A stretch of DNA of 64,000 nucleotides from Flavobacteriales bacterium (GTDB taxonomy: Bacteria; Bacteroidota; Bacteroidia; Flavobacteriales; Schleiferiaceae). A model generated the notes under the pieces. The model saw only the letters and a list, made by a program, of their open reading frames with translations. It was not told where the DNA came from and searched no databases. This document shows positions 2,242 to 45,622 of the stretch, in pieces. Numbering within the stretch: the stretch's first letter is position 1; each line of letters starts with the position of its first letter. A program made the position numbers and the translations under genes. The DNA is taken from the NCBI GenBank assembly GCA_012269745.1, contig JAAXJR010000009.1, forward strand, positions 6,014-70,013. The letters are read 5' to 3'.

Positions 2242-2715
2242 CTAAGCTTTGGCGGTAGATTTCATGGCCCGGACTTGACGGATATATTTGGGATGTACCC
2301 ACAACATACCGAAGTTCTCACCATCCTCTTTACCTAGGTGTCTGTGGTGCATTTTATGGGCCAAACGAACCGCTTCCCAATAAGTACTGTTACTTTTTCT
2401 AAGAAAGGGTAATCTCTGGTGAATGAATACTTCATGTACGATCGCATATGCAAGACCATAAAGAGCGATGCCAAGTCCAATAGCCACAGAAATTCCATTA
2501 CCAGCCATCATTCCCAGCATGATACACAGCCATGAAGGGACAGCAAAAATGAGAAAGAATGTGTCGTTCTTCTCTAGTGCTCCAGGTGTCTTTGTGTGAT
2601 GATCTTCGTGCAAGAACCATAAAAAGCCATGCATGAGGTAGCGATGTGCTAGCCAAGCCGTTCCTTCCATAGCAAAGAAGGTGAGCAACATGATTCCGAT
2701 TTCTAATCCGCTCAT
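2242..2715 (-). CDS. crtZ: Beta-carotene 3-hydroxylase CrtZ
   Basis: The 157-aa membrane protein belongs to the fatty-acid-hydroxylase-type di-iron family. The histidine clusters that bind iron are all visible: H24-x4-H29 in WLAHRYLMHG, H36/H39/H40 in FLHEDHH, then HEVFIHQR and HKMHH further on. CrtZ hydroxylates the beta-rings of beta-carotene to zeaxanthin. Its start codon overlaps the stop of bcp (ATGA), and the cyclase follows after 4 nt, so the three are surely one transcript. Zeaxanthin-type pigment is a reasonable inference, typical of marine flavobacteria. Confidence 0.95.
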   Translation of the reverse strand: MSGLEIGIMLLTFFAMEGTAWLAHRYLMHGFLWFLHEDHHTKTPGALEKNDTFFLIFAVPSWLCIMLGMMAGNGISVAIGLGIALYGLAYAIVHEVFIHQRLPFLRKSNSTYWEAVRLAHKMHHRHLGKEDGENFGMLWVHPKYIRQVRAMKSTAKA

Positions 2716-3182
2716 GAATTCAGTTTTTTCAAGAAGTTAAGACTTTCATCTATATGGTCGGTTGCTTTCGACATGCTCTTAAAGATAAAGGCAACTTTAT
2801 GCTCTGCATCGGTTACAAAAGTGATGCGATCCGCGACCATGTTAAATAGTAGACCGGGAGCTCCGAAGGATTTTCTCACCTTGTGCCCTGGGTCACTAAG
2901 AACAGGGAAATTCAAATTGTATTTTTCTGCGAACCCTTTGTGTTCTTTCACAGATCCACTGTTTACTCCAATTACCTGAGCACCAGCGGCTGCAAATTCA
3001 CTTTCGTGGTCTCTAAAGCTACAAGCCTGAGCCGTGCAACCAGGAGTATGGTCTTTAGGATAAAAGAAAATCACTAGTGGCTTTCCTTTGTATTCTTCAG
3101 AATTGAACTCTTTACCGTCCTGGTCTTGTAAAGAGAATGCTGGGATAGCTTCTCCTATGGCTAGCGGTTTTTTTCTTGACAT
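2712..3182 (-). CDS. bcp: Thioredoxin-dependent peroxiredoxin (Bcp/PrxQ type)
   Basis: The 156-aa protein is a complete AhpC/TSA-fold peroxiredoxin: the catalytic segment HTPGCTAQACSFRD has the peroxidatic Cys49 and the PrxQ-type resolving Cys54 five residues later, and GVNSGSVKEHKGFAEKY is the usual second motif. It reduces hydroperoxides with electrons from thioredoxin in the cytoplasm. It is first in the operon with crtZ and lycopene cyclase and overlaps crtZ by 4 bp; co-expression of a peroxide scavenger with carotenoid (singlet-oxygen quencher) synthesis fits a photo-oxidative stress unit. Confidence 0.94.
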   Translation of the reverse strand: MSRKKPLAIGEAIPAFSLQDQDGKEFNSEEYKGKPLVIFFYPKDHTPGCTAQACSFRDHESEFAAAGAQVIGVNSGSVKEHKGFAEKYNLNFPVLSDPGHKVRKSFGAPGLLFNMVADRITFVTDAEHKVAFIFKSMSKATDHIDESLNFLKKLNS

Positions 3183-11201: not shown

Positions 11202-11972
11202 TTAGACAGCTTCTCTCAATAGCTCACGTCTTTTCTTTACAGGATCTGTACCGAAGTAATCTTTAAAGCACCTCGTGTAATATGAGTGACTCTTAAAGCC
11301 AACTAGGTGCGCAATCTGTGCAATTGAATTTTCCTCATCTACCATGAATTCCAAGGATTTCTCTAAGCGTACTGAACGAATAAATTTGCTGACGCTCAAT
11401 CCTGTGAATTGCTTAATTCTTTTTTGAACGGCACTTCGACTGTAATGCAGCTCTGCACTGAGTTCGTCTAATGAGAATTCACTCGAGGTTAGATTGTCCA
11501 GAACTATTTGTTCCGCCTCACCAATCCATGACTCCACAGCTGTCTTCTTCACAGCTTGTTCAGCATTCGCCTTCGGTAGTTCCGAGGTGATTTTTGAAAA
11601 TTGCGTGAGGATACTTCTTACCGCGGCTTCTAGCTCGTAAGGATTGATAGGCTTATTTACAAAATGAATCGCACCTGCTTTAAAAGACTGGAATCGTACG
11701 TGATTTTCGTGCAAAGAAGTCATTACTAGCACTGCCAAATCTGAAAATTTAGGATTGGCCTTGATGTTTTGAATCAATTCAATACCGTCCATCTCAGGCA
11801 TATCCAAATCGGTGACAATTAAAGAAGGCTTTTTTGTCTTCACTCTTTCTAAAATCTCCTTGGCACTGTAGAAAGTTTCAACATTCCATCCTCCCTTCGT
11901 GAAGAACGTTTTGAGGTATCTTAAAATGACCTTATCGTCATCAACAATAAACAGCGTATGATTCTCTCCCAT
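11202..11972 (-). CDS. Response regulator with AraC-type DNA-binding output
   Basis: The 256-aa protein has an N-terminal receiver (about 5-125; acidic pocket FIVDDD, phospho-acceptor Asp in LIVTDLDMPEMDG, switch Thr/Ser in VLVMTS, Lys in FVNKP) and a C-terminal AraC/XylS double helix-turn-helix (about 155-250; YSRSAVQKRIKQFTG and IAQIAHLVGFKSHSYYTRCFKDYFG). It should be a phosphorylation-controlled transcription factor. No histidine kinase is adjacent; the nearest in the window is at 45.7 kb. It has its own promoter region toward 12.0 kb and a terminator inside the facing lipoprotein gene. Confidence 0.93.
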   Translation of the reverse strand: MGENHTLFIVDDDKVILRYLKTFFTKGGWNVETFYSAKEILERVKTKKPSLIVTDLDMPEMDGIELIQNIKANPKFSDLAVLVMTSLHENHVRFQSFKAGAIHFVNKPINPYELEAAVRSILTQFSKITSELPKANAEQAVKKTAVESWIGEAEQIVLDNLTSSEFSLDELSAELHYSRSAVQKRIKQFTGLSVSKFIRSVRLEKSLEFMVDEENSIAQIAHLVGFKSHSYYTRCFKDYFGTDPVKKRRELLREAV

Positions 11973-12018: not shown

Positions 12019-12135
12019 ACATCATCTATCTATCTAAGAATTTATACTCAAATTGTTACAAAGCGGTAATAACTCCAATTGTTTCACCCTATATTGCAAC
12101 TATTCAAGGGCAACTTTGAATTAGGTTAGGGGTAC

Positions 12136-12163
12136 GGAGCCAAGAAATTGGCTCCTTTTTTTT
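12136..12163 (+). terminator. Orphan intrinsic terminator upstream of the photolyase operon
   Basis: GGAGCCAA (12136-12143), GAAA loop, TTGGCTCC (12148-12155) and then eight T residues. It works only on the + strand (no T-run on the other side), yet no + strand gene lies between 11193 and it. It stands 38 nt before the photolyase ATG, as a leader attenuator or the 3' end of a small RNA would. Confidence 0.8.
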
Positions 12164-12201
12164 GCCCTAAACTTTCGGCGAGAATTGCTTGTTTAAAAGG
12201 C

Positions 12202-13731
12202 ATGTCTAAGATTATTCGTCTCGTTCTAGGAGATCAACTCAACCCCCGTCATTCTTGGTTTTCCGAGGTAAATCCTGATATAACCTATGCGTTCATTGAA
12301 TGTAAAGGAGAAGGCAGCTACGCCCCCCATCATGTCCAAAAGGTAGTGGGTATATTTCAGTCCATGCGCACCTTTGCTTCCCGACTTGAGAGCCAAGGCC
12401 ATAAGGTGTATTACCACAAAATTCTCGACTCAAGAGAAATTGAACTTATAGATATTCTGCATTCCGCATCAGTGAAAAATAATACTCATGAGTTACAATT
12501 TATGATGCCAGACGAGTGGAGAGTGAAAGAAAACCTAGAAAGTCTCAAATCGAGAGGTTTTAAGATATCATTCGTCAGTAGTGAACATTTCATTTCCACC
12601 CCTGAAGAATTTAGCAACACTTTCAAAGGCAAAAAGAGTTACCTCATGGAAAGCTTTTACAGGAAGCTGAGAAAGCGCACCGGAATCTTAATGGAAGGTG
12701 GCAACCCAACAGGAGGTAAGTGGAACTATGATGCTCAAAACCGTAAAAAACTGCCCAAAAACCATGTGCTGCCTGCAGCGCATGTTCCAAGCACCAATGT
12801 AGAAGACGTTTACCAAGAAGTACTCGAAGCTAATTTGCCTGTAATAGGATCTTTAAGGGACCCTAAACACTTTTACTGGCCGACTACACCCGAGCAAGCC
12901 ATGGATATATTCGAGAACTGGCTGGAACATTGTTTCGAATTTTTCGGGGATTTTCAAGACGCAATGACCGTCTCTAATTGGGCCCTTTACCATAGTAGAA
13001 TTTCTTTTGCATTAAATACCAAGATGATAGATCCTTTGACCATTTGCCAAATGGCCGAGGAATACTACCATAACAATGAAAATATACCCCTAAATGCTGC
13101 TGAGGGTTTCATTCGCCAAATCTTGGGATGGAGAGAATTTATGAGAGGTGTGTATTGGGAACGTATGCCCGAATTCGCGGATACAAATTACTTCAACCAT
13201 CAAGCAAAGCTCCCACAATGGTTTTGGAACGGAAAAACAAAAATGAAGTGCCTCTCCCACTCCATCAAACAAAGTTTAGATCATGCCTATGCCCATCACA
13301 TACAACGTTTAATGGTAACAGGTAATTTTGCTCTATTAGCAGGTATACATCCGGACGAAGTCGATCTGTGGTACCTGGGAATATATATCGATGCATTTGA
13401 ATGGGTTGAGATCACCAATACCCGCGGTATGAGCCAATATGCGGATGGTGGATGGATTGCAACCAAACCCTATGTCGCCTCCGCCAACTACATGAAAAAA
13501 ATGGGCGATTATTGTCAAAATTGTTCCTACAACGAGAAAACAAAAACAGAATCTGATAGTTGTCCATTTAACTCGCTGTACTGGAACTTCTTCGAGCGTC
13601 ATCGCGACCTACTTGGTAATAACTTCAGACTTGGTATGGTCTACAGAACCTTTGACAAAATGGATGTACATACAAAAGAGGCCATACGACAGCGTGCAAC
13701 CTATGTATTAGAACATCTAGACACTTTATAA
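12202..13731 (+). CDS. phrB: Fe-S bacterial cryptochrome/photolyase (PhrB-type, probable (6-4) photolyase)
   Basis: Started at ATG 12202 the 509-aa protein matches the FeS-BCP class: DLG-like N-terminal domain (IIRLVLGDQLN), FAD-binding C-terminal domain, and the four [4Fe-4S] cysteines at 350, 438, 441 and 454 (CLSHS; CQNC; SCPFN), the same numbers as in Agrobacterium PhrB. The coincidence supports this start over the in-frame ATG at 12148, which lies inside the terminator hairpin. PhrB enzymes repair (6-4) photoproducts using blue light, FAD and a lumazine antenna. The stop overlaps the next start (TAATG), coupling it to the DASH cryptochrome. Confidence 0.93.
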   Translation: MSKIIRLVLGDQLNPRHSWFSEVNPDITYAFIECKGEGSYAPHHVQKVVGIFQSMRTFASRLESQGHKVYYHKILDSREIELIDILHSASVKNNTHELQFMMPDEWRVKENLESLKSRGFKISFVSSEHFISTPEEFSNTFKGKKSYLMESFYRKLRKRTGILMEGGNPTGGKWNYDAQNRKKLPKNHVLPAAHVPSTNVEDVYQEVLEANLPVIGSLRDPKHFYWPTTPEQAMDIFENWLEHCFEFFGDFQDAMTVSNWALYHSRISFALNTKMIDPLTICQMAEEYYHNNENIPLNAAEGFIRQILGWREFMRGVYWERMPEFADTNYFNHQAKLPQWFWNGKTKMKCLSHSIKQSLDHAYAHHIQRLMVTGNFALLAGIHPDEVDLWYLGIYIDAFEWVEITNTRGMSQYADGGWIATKPYVASANYMKKMGDYCQNCSYNEKTKTESDSCPFNSLYWNFFERHRDLLGNNFRLGMVYRTFDKMDVHTKEAIRQRATYVLEHLDTL

Positions 13732-15011
13732 TGAGTACCTGTATCCTTTGGTTTAGAAACAATTTACGATTAGGCGACAACATGCCTGTAGCGGAGGCCT
13801 ATGCCCAGTTCGACACTGTCATTCCGGTATTTATTCTATCCGATTCACAACATTCAAGTAAGTGGGCTGAACCTGGAATGGGCCCCCACCGAGCTCGCTT
13901 TTTAGTAGAAAGCCTGGAAGATTTGAAGCAGGGGTTAAGGAATGCATCCAGTGATCTGCTTATTATTCCTTCTGAAGACCCCGTAAAAACCTTACTTGAG
14001 ATAGCTAATCAAACCAATTCTTGCGCAATTTACGGTCCCAAAGAATTCGCATTTAACGAGGTTAGACAAGAATCTGAATTAGTCTCAAAGGCAAAGCAGG
14101 AGCGTCTCGAAGTCAAATTCTACACCGAACGTACCCTTTACTTACAAAGTGATCTGCCATTCGGACTCGATGATTTGCCTGAAGTCTTCTCTCGTTTCAG
14201 AGGAAAAGTTGAAAAACGAAGCAGGGTACAACCACCTATCGAAGAACCAGAAATCACATCATTTGACCCCCTTGACTTTAATTTGGAAGGTTCTGAAATC
14301 CCAGTGCTTTCAGATTCAAAAGATTCTCGTTCTGCAGTGCCTTTCAAAGGTGGAACTACGGCAGCCTGGAAAGAGGTGGACTACTACCTATGGGAAAGCG
14401 AGGCCGTTCTCGAATACAAACTCACACGAAACGGGATGGTCGGCCGAAAATACAGCTCAAAGTTATCTGCCTTTTTGTCCTTAGGCTGCCTAAGTGCTCG
14501 ACAGATTTACGACGAACTGAAAAGATTTGAAGAAGAAGTTGAATCCAATGAAAGTACTTACTGGCTATTTTTTGAATTATTGTGGCGCGAATACTTCCAA
14601 TGGATAGCATTAAAGCATGGTAAAGACTTGTTTACTGCCCACGGTTTACAACCCGAAAAGCCATTGAAACAAGGTTTTAATGCGAGGGCCTTTGAAAAGT
14701 GGACCTCCGGAAACACGGGAGATCGTTTTGTCGATGCCAATATGAAGGAACTTGTAGCTACAGGTTTTATGAGTAATCGTGGACGTCAAAATGTGGCTTC
14801 CTATCTCGTTCACGATATGGGAATAGATTGGCGCGCCGGTGCAGCATTTTTTGAGAAACATTTGATTGATTACGACCCATCATCCAATTATGGAAATTGG
14901 TTATATAATGCAGGAAGAGGCAACGACCCGCGTCCTTTCAGGAAATTCAACACCAAAATGCAAGCGGAGCGATACGATTCCAAAGGAGAGTTTGTAGAAA
15001 CTTGGACGTAA
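13731..15011 (+). CDS. DASH-family cryptochrome
   Basis: The 426-aa protein has the photolyase N-terminal antenna domain (ILWFRNNLRLGDN at the start, a typical class I/DASH opening) and the FAD domain with DASH signatures: DANMKELVATGFMSNRGRQ and DYDPSSNYGNWLYNAGRGNDPR near the C-terminus. DASH cryptochromes bind MTHF and FAD and repair cyclobutane dimers in single-stranded DNA, and may also signal. It is translationally coupled to the Fe-S photolyase upstream, and the PLP decarboxylase follows after 15 nt. Confidence 0.94.
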   Translation: MSTCILWFRNNLRLGDNMPVAEAYAQFDTVIPVFILSDSQHSSKWAEPGMGPHRARFLVESLEDLKQGLRNASSDLLIIPSEDPVKTLLEIANQTNSCAIYGPKEFAFNEVRQESELVSKAKQERLEVKFYTERTLYLQSDLPFGLDDLPEVFSRFRGKVEKRSRVQPPIEEPEITSFDPLDFNLEGSEIPVLSDSKDSRSAVPFKGGTTAAWKEVDYYLWESEAVLEYKLTRNGMVGRKYSSKLSAFLSLGCLSARQIYDELKRFEEEVESNESTYWLFFELLWREYFQWIALKHGKDLFTAHGLQPEKPLKQGFNARAFEKWTSGNTGDRFVDANMKELVATGFMSNRGRQNVASYLVHDMGIDWRAGAAFFEKHLIDYDPSSNYGNWLYNAGRGNDPRPFRKFNTKMQAERYDSKGEFVETWT

Positions 15012-45399: not shown

Positions 45400-45431
45400 T
45401 TGCTTTCTCCATACTTACCTTCTTAACTTTG
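45400..45431 (+). promoter_or_regulatory. SRP RNA gene promoter
   Basis: TTG (45400-45402), 21 nt, then TAACTTTG (45424-45431), a perfect Bacteroidota -7 element. It ends 4 nt before the first base of the SRP RNA stem (45436), which fits the usual start distance. Confidence 0.8.
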
Positions 45432-45435
45432 CATC

Positions 45436-45531
45436 GGGCAAGTCTTACACAACCAGCTCCTAATGAATCCCCCAGGGCGGGAACGCAGCAAGGGTAATTG
45501 GTCGTAGCGGTGTGATGTAAGTAGCTTGCCC
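45436..45531 (+). ncRNA. ffs: Signal recognition particle RNA (small bacterial 4.5S type)
   Basis: The region contains the conserved SRP RNA domain IV core: CCCCCAGGGCGGGAACGCAGCAAGGG (seen as GGAA tetraloop-type hairpin with the asymmetric loop bases). The ends GGGCAAG (45436-45442) and CTTGCCC (45525-45531) close the terminal helix, and a T6 tract follows (45532-45537). Length is about 96 nt, normal for the small form lacking the Alu domain. It binds Ffh and targets nascent membrane proteins. Its promoter is immediately upstream. Confidence 0.95.
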
Positions 45532-45622
45532 TTTTTTACTGTCTATCAATAAGTGTAAAAGCTTAAAAAGACTTGGCTTTTGTAATTTAACAGGGATTTA
45601 AAAGCTAAATTTTATACTTATA

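Follow-up and report, generated by a model that had tools for sequence, protein, structure and literature searches.

Two small RNAs of the Bacteroidota and one general class of regulator are the described systems closest to the element reported here. FopS, an RNA of Bacteroides, is characterised in PMC11697453 as multicopy, with a single-stranded 5′ stretch, and as bound by the RRM protein RbpB. Rfp18 of Flavobacterium psychrophilum was found by way of transcriptome and conservation data and, according to PMC9723704, pairs with protease mRNAs through its third stem-loop. Antiterminator-type transcription attenuators place an intrinsic terminator ahead of the gene that they control. Little has been mapped of the small RNAs in marine and freshwater Flavobacteriales, and the literature searched gave no description of an RNA adjoining a photolyase gene in the Bacteroidota. 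Judged by its sequence, the locus described below appears to hold a real, so far uncatalogued and genus-specific small RNA gene beside the photolyase-related gene phrB.

Anatomy and conservation of a 62-nt element upstream of phrB

The features referred to below are listed by their coordinates in the window, i.e. the whole 64,000-nt stretch of Flavobacteriales DNA that was analysed.

2712–3182, −: peroxiredoxin-like gene (named from a reading of the sequence, not from a database call)
11202–11972, −: response regulator with an AraC-type HTH, between a lipoprotein-like gene and the RNA (family searches)
12090–12095, +: −10 box TATATT of the putative small RNA, 6 nt upstream of its predicted first base (TATATT or TATCTT in 21/21 loci)
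12102–12163, +: putative small RNA gene, predicted transcript of 62 nt (conservation, structure and covariance model)
12102–12121, +: hairpin 1, AUUCAAGG-GCAA-CUUUGAAU, with a GNRA loop in most sequences (all cells paired in 12 distinct rows)
12122–12135, +: single-stranded linker UAGGUUAGGGGUAC, where binding is presumed to occur (no pairs in the fold; GTTAGGGGTAC the same in 15/15 rows)
12136–12163, +: intrinsic terminator hairpin and T-tail (8/8 pairs unvaried; loop GAAA, or GCAA in locus L014)
12170–12195, +: phrB promoter-like motif AACTTT-N15-GTTTA, ECF-like (AACTTT-N14/15-GTT[AT] in 21/21 loci)
12202–13731, +: phrB-type photolyase-related gene (Pfam PF04244 DPRP, E = 3.5e-64)
13731–15011, +: DASH-family cryptochrome, next after phrB (TIGR02765, E = 1e-141)

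The original prediction was of an orphan intrinsic terminator with an 8-bp stem, a GAAA loop and a T8 run at 12136–12163, standing 38 nt before the PhrB start. Both sequence inspection and a terminator scan returned this hairpin (GGAGCCAA-GAAA-TTGGCTCC at 12136–12155 on the + strand, followed by T8 at 12156–12163), and 38 nt do separate the T-run from the ATG of the photolyase-related gene at 12202. The description as an orphan fails: the hairpin is the last part of a 62-nt unit that is conserved and has a −10 box to itself. This unit (12102–12163) consists of an 8-bp GNRA-capped hairpin, the invariant single-stranded linker, the 8-bp GAAA-capped terminator and the T8 tail. By count alone the terminator is unremarkable, since 12 kb held 12 terminator-like sites against 10.0 (sd 3.5) in shuffled sequences; it is conservation that settles that the hairpin is real.

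A 51-nt exact word, 12112–12162, is common to the window and all four syntenic 16-kb loci compared; the next longest word shared by all of them is 18 nt, and is the sole other one of at least 14 nt. Over 16 loci, the mean pairwise identity is 95% for the element, 44% for the 100 nt that precede the −10 box, 45% for the stretch from the T-run to the ATG and 32% for the fourfold sites of phrB, the mean identity of the PhrB protein being 69%. On whether the hairpin is conserved in relatives, a check that the original prediction had named, the outcome is positive: the hairpin is kept along with the rest of the element. Together, the shared word and the element's identity amount to far more conservation than a terminator by itself requires, and a 62-nt RNA that is nearly unchanged while fourfold sites in the adjoining gene have reached saturation points to a sequence-specific role.

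The fold of 12102–12163 has an energy of −21.1 kcal/mol (z = −3.44; 1 of 200 shuffles equally good) and comprises two 8-bp hairpins with GNRA loops and an open linker between them, a structure that RNAalifold reproduced identically. In the 12 distinct rows of the alignment, all 16 pairs are formed in every row. Four of the eight pairs of hairpin 1 vary, exclusively between A-U and G-U or between U-A and U-G, in each case on one side and with pairing kept; in the terminator hairpin no pair varies. By way of covariation, a further check that the original prediction had named, the region offers pairing-preserving one-sided changes in hairpin 1; no pair of the element has a two-sided compensatory change in these rows or in the RNAalifold alignment, so that covariation lends the structure modest support at most. 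Two loci (L014 and L015) have one extra nucleotide between hairpin 1 and the linker, which argues against a coding role. The reading frame of phrB has its conserved start at the ATG of 12202 and is open further upstream, as far as a TTG at 12148 inside the terminator stem.

Linkage to phrB and restriction to the genus

Used as a query, the photolyase protein had a match in 57 of 100 genomes, and orthologues came both from the genus of the window and from other genera. Within the genus, a 30-nt core of the element (up to five substitutions allowed) stands shortly before phrB in 19 of 20 loci (L001–L009, L011–L017, L018, which is cut by the start of its contig, L019 and L020). The sole locus without the core, L010, is on a contig that begins 16 nt before phrB. 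The element thus directly precedes phrB in the genus wherever the contig continues, and is absent from this position in the ten loci of other genera inspected (L021–L030). The gene on its other side varies while the element stays unchanged: most relatives have a + strand lipoprotein-like gene upstream, and the divergent response regulator is found in the window and in L090 and not in L089, L091 or L092.

Two observations on the assemblies belong here. The G022 bin carries two copies of phrB (contigs C13 and C243), each with a copy of the RNA upstream, and may be a mixed bin. The metagenome-assembled genomes (MAGs) G008, G009 and G001 have contig breaks at the element or close to it (the ends of L093, L094 and L095 and the start of L018), perhaps because the sequence is common to co-occurring species.

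With a covariance model of the element, matches of at least 86 bits were obtained in 20 of the 25 genus genomes searched. The window's own genome gave one strong match, and a second copy of the terminator with up to three mismatches was not found in it. Three of the five genomes lacking the RNA (G012, G014 and G018) have no phrB match either. The G006 contig, after a run of Ns, breaks off within phrB. The fifth, G001, has no phrB match, and its contig tracks those of its relatives until TATATTCA, continues as other sequence and then ends, which may reflect an assembly chimera.

Outside the genus, the model found no strong match, the top score being at most 31 bits among the remaining genomes of the 198 searched. 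Samples of the phylum and of the order, 395 genomes each, added to the genus only two matches of 33–35 bits, both rejected as homologues on inspection because they are terminators that lack the linker. All weak matches inspected outside the genus, L158 among them, were rejected, being terminators or sequence of another kind and in each case lacking the linker. Across 84,980 species genomes (GTDB), a pattern scan returned 21 stretches, all from MAG records labelled Cryomorphaceae, Schleiferiaceae, Flavobacteriales or Bacteroidetes, and by-eye comparison identified these as the contigs already found through the genus genomes. Viral contigs gave zero matches to a 17-nt core. Over the element, whether that of the window or those of 17 related loci, no Rfam family reached its gathering score. 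Within the searches made, the element is confined to the genus. Elsewhere in the window, a Bacteroidales small SRP RNA (RF04183) lies at 45429–45535 (+; 112.8 bits).

Predicted transcription of the element and of phrB

In all 21 loci with upstream sequence, the element is preceded by TATATT or, in L009 as read by eye, TATCTT. The spacing from this box to ATTC is 6 nt in 20 of these loci and 7 nt in L020, and there is no clear conservation in the −33 region. The TAnnTT core of the box fits the flavobacterial −7 box TAnnTTTG, as given in PMC9723704.

A second motif, AACTTT-N14/15-GTT[AT], is found between the terminator and phrB in each of the 21 loci that have downstream sequence; the first ATG follows after 7–9 nt in 17 loci and after 18–19 nt in four. 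Genome-wide, the motif with a nearby ATG showed no excess over a reversed-pattern control in seven genomes; one match common to G011 and G016 is, by eye, part of a terminator-like hairpin in the G011 locus (L099). We read the motif upstream of phrB as a putative promoter of that gene, perhaps of the ECF type.

On sequence, the element has the attributes of an independent small RNA: its own promoter, its own intrinsic terminator, a non-coding sequence and a conserved structure. We consider that 12102–12163 is probably a stand-alone small RNA gene, transcribed apart from phrB and with a linker that acts in trans. RNA polymerase would use the TATATT promoter to initiate near 12102 and would stop in the T-run at 12163, giving an RNA with a 5′ hairpin, the linker exposed and the terminator hairpin at its 3′ end. 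phrB would have a separate start, from the motif at 12170–12195, and the terminator would part two transcription units rather than switch phrB. As a counterpoint, constant adjacency to phrB would be expected equally of an element acting in cis.

A cis-acting leader would have phrB transcribed from TATATT, with the hairpin as an attenuator or riboswitch-like switch and the linker as its sensor. The linkage to phrB in all loci inspected and the near-invariance of linker and stem are consistent with this arrangement, as is an outer pairing, TTAGGG/CCCTAA, kept in 91% of cells over 10 rows. This pairing encloses the terminator and does not compete with it, the phrB motif begins with its conserved 3′ part, and several rows break it. 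The original prediction had offered an attenuator as one of two readings, with CTCCAATT at 12073–12080 as the antiterminator. The sequence is there, but of the 18 loci with enough upstream sequence only L001 and L002 have it, and an attenuator built on this pairing partner was rejected. Nor did Rfam give a riboswitch match. The rarity of the antiterminator and the separate promoter-like motif of phrB, present in every locus, favour an independently transcribed small RNA over an attenuator, which we regard as unlikely, as we do a cis-acting leader in general; the other half of the prediction, a small RNA, finds good support in the conservation, the structure and the fixed −10 box.

The proposal that CAACTTTG at 12111–12118 is a −7 box was also rejected. 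The sequence is present as described, but most of it makes up the 3′ arm of hairpin 1, a hairpin whose variants keep RNA pairing; the sequence might conceivably still serve as an additional start.

A DNA site at which a protein binds for phrB, such as an operator, with the hairpins as palindromic binding sites, would account for an invariance beyond the needs of a terminator and for the occurrence of AACTTT both in the 3′ part of hairpin 1 and in the phrB promoter motif. However, the one-sided A-T to G-T changes in hairpin 1 break the DNA palindrome and keep the RNA stem, L014 has GCAA in place of GAAA as its terminator loop, and the T-run is one-sided with a −10 box at fixed spacing. We therefore think a DNA-level element very unlikely. 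Least credible of all is a plain terminator insulating phrB against read-through from upstream, for which the + strand lipoprotein-like gene in most relatives could be cited, because the element is unchanged where the divergent response regulator intervenes and termination does not require an invariant loop, linker and stem sequence.

Candidate partners of the linker and comparison with known systems

Returning to the stand-alone small RNA, an invariant open linker suggests recognition of an mRNA or a protein, and the linker would most likely act in trans, either through pairing with mRNAs close to their start codons or through a protein that it binds. Hfq (PF17209) was detected in none of 10 genus genomes (control positive in 5 of 14), and RRM_1 (PF00076) in none of nine (control positive in Bacteroides ihuae), so that neither type of partner is evident. 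The UUAGGUUAGG repeat resembles hnRNP A1 sites; an RRM-protein partner for this repeat was rejected on the RRM_1 result in the nine genomes.

Outside the element, the 11-nt sequence GTACCCCTAAC, an exact complement to the linker, occurred once among 10 genomes (in G013); neither it nor the 15-mer with up to two mismatches was above control. When duplex energies between the linker and 13 local gene families were compared, the start of the peroxiredoxin gene ranked first, a value reached by 1 of 100 shuffled linkers. With naive starts it ranked second of 15 families, a count that includes some mis-started or paralogous entries. Of the six loci then inspected, two were new, and both of these gave weak values (−11.0 and −10.4). 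Over 21 orthologues, several of them near-identical close relatives, the mean was −13.5 compared with −8.9 for shuffled linkers (0 of 500, post hoc), and the predicted pairing site wanders from −15 to +18 of the start codon. The peroxiredoxin start region is thus a weak, post-hoc lead as a candidate target.

Upstream in the same locus, the region 2242–3182 (−) of the window holds a carotene-hydroxylase-like gene, for which no Pfam or NCBIfam family was found, as well as the peroxiredoxin-like gene, and the two genes suggest a light-stress neighbourhood. In a more speculative scheme, the linker of a genus-specific small RNA would control photo-oxidative defence in trans without Hfq or RRM proteins, for example by pairing at the start codon of the peroxiredoxin-like gene, and the RNA would be kept beside the photolyase gene as part of one light-stress programme. 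We infer transcription, trans action and any link to light or oxidative stress from the sequence, and hold this full scheme to be unlikely. The fixed position before a photolyase gene offers a definite starting point for work on light-stress control in these aquatic bacteria.

Antiterminator-type attenuators share with the element an intrinsic terminator before a gene; unlike them, the element has no conserved alternative pairing upstream, and the gene has a separate promoter-like motif. The FopS/GibS RNAs of Bacteroides (RF04319, BTncRNA_FopS) are, like the element, short Bacteroidota RNAs in which a single-stranded region is followed by an intrinsic terminator. FopS is the best near-match from the Bacteroidota, with AGGUUA aligning to the element; it scores 13.4 bits (E = 9.8), where the gathering score is 56. 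In contrast to FopS, the element is single copy in the window's genome, has a 5′ hairpin and occurs in a genus with no RRM_1 protein in the nine genomes searched; membership of the family was rejected on the sub-threshold score, the missing RRM partner and the lack of multicopy paralogues. Rfp18 is, as described in PMC9723704, likewise a genus-conserved structured small RNA of the same phylum, from which the element, with its two hairpins and exposed linker, is set apart by that description rather than by sequence. Beside these RNAs, the element would represent a new small RNA family of an ordinary kind.
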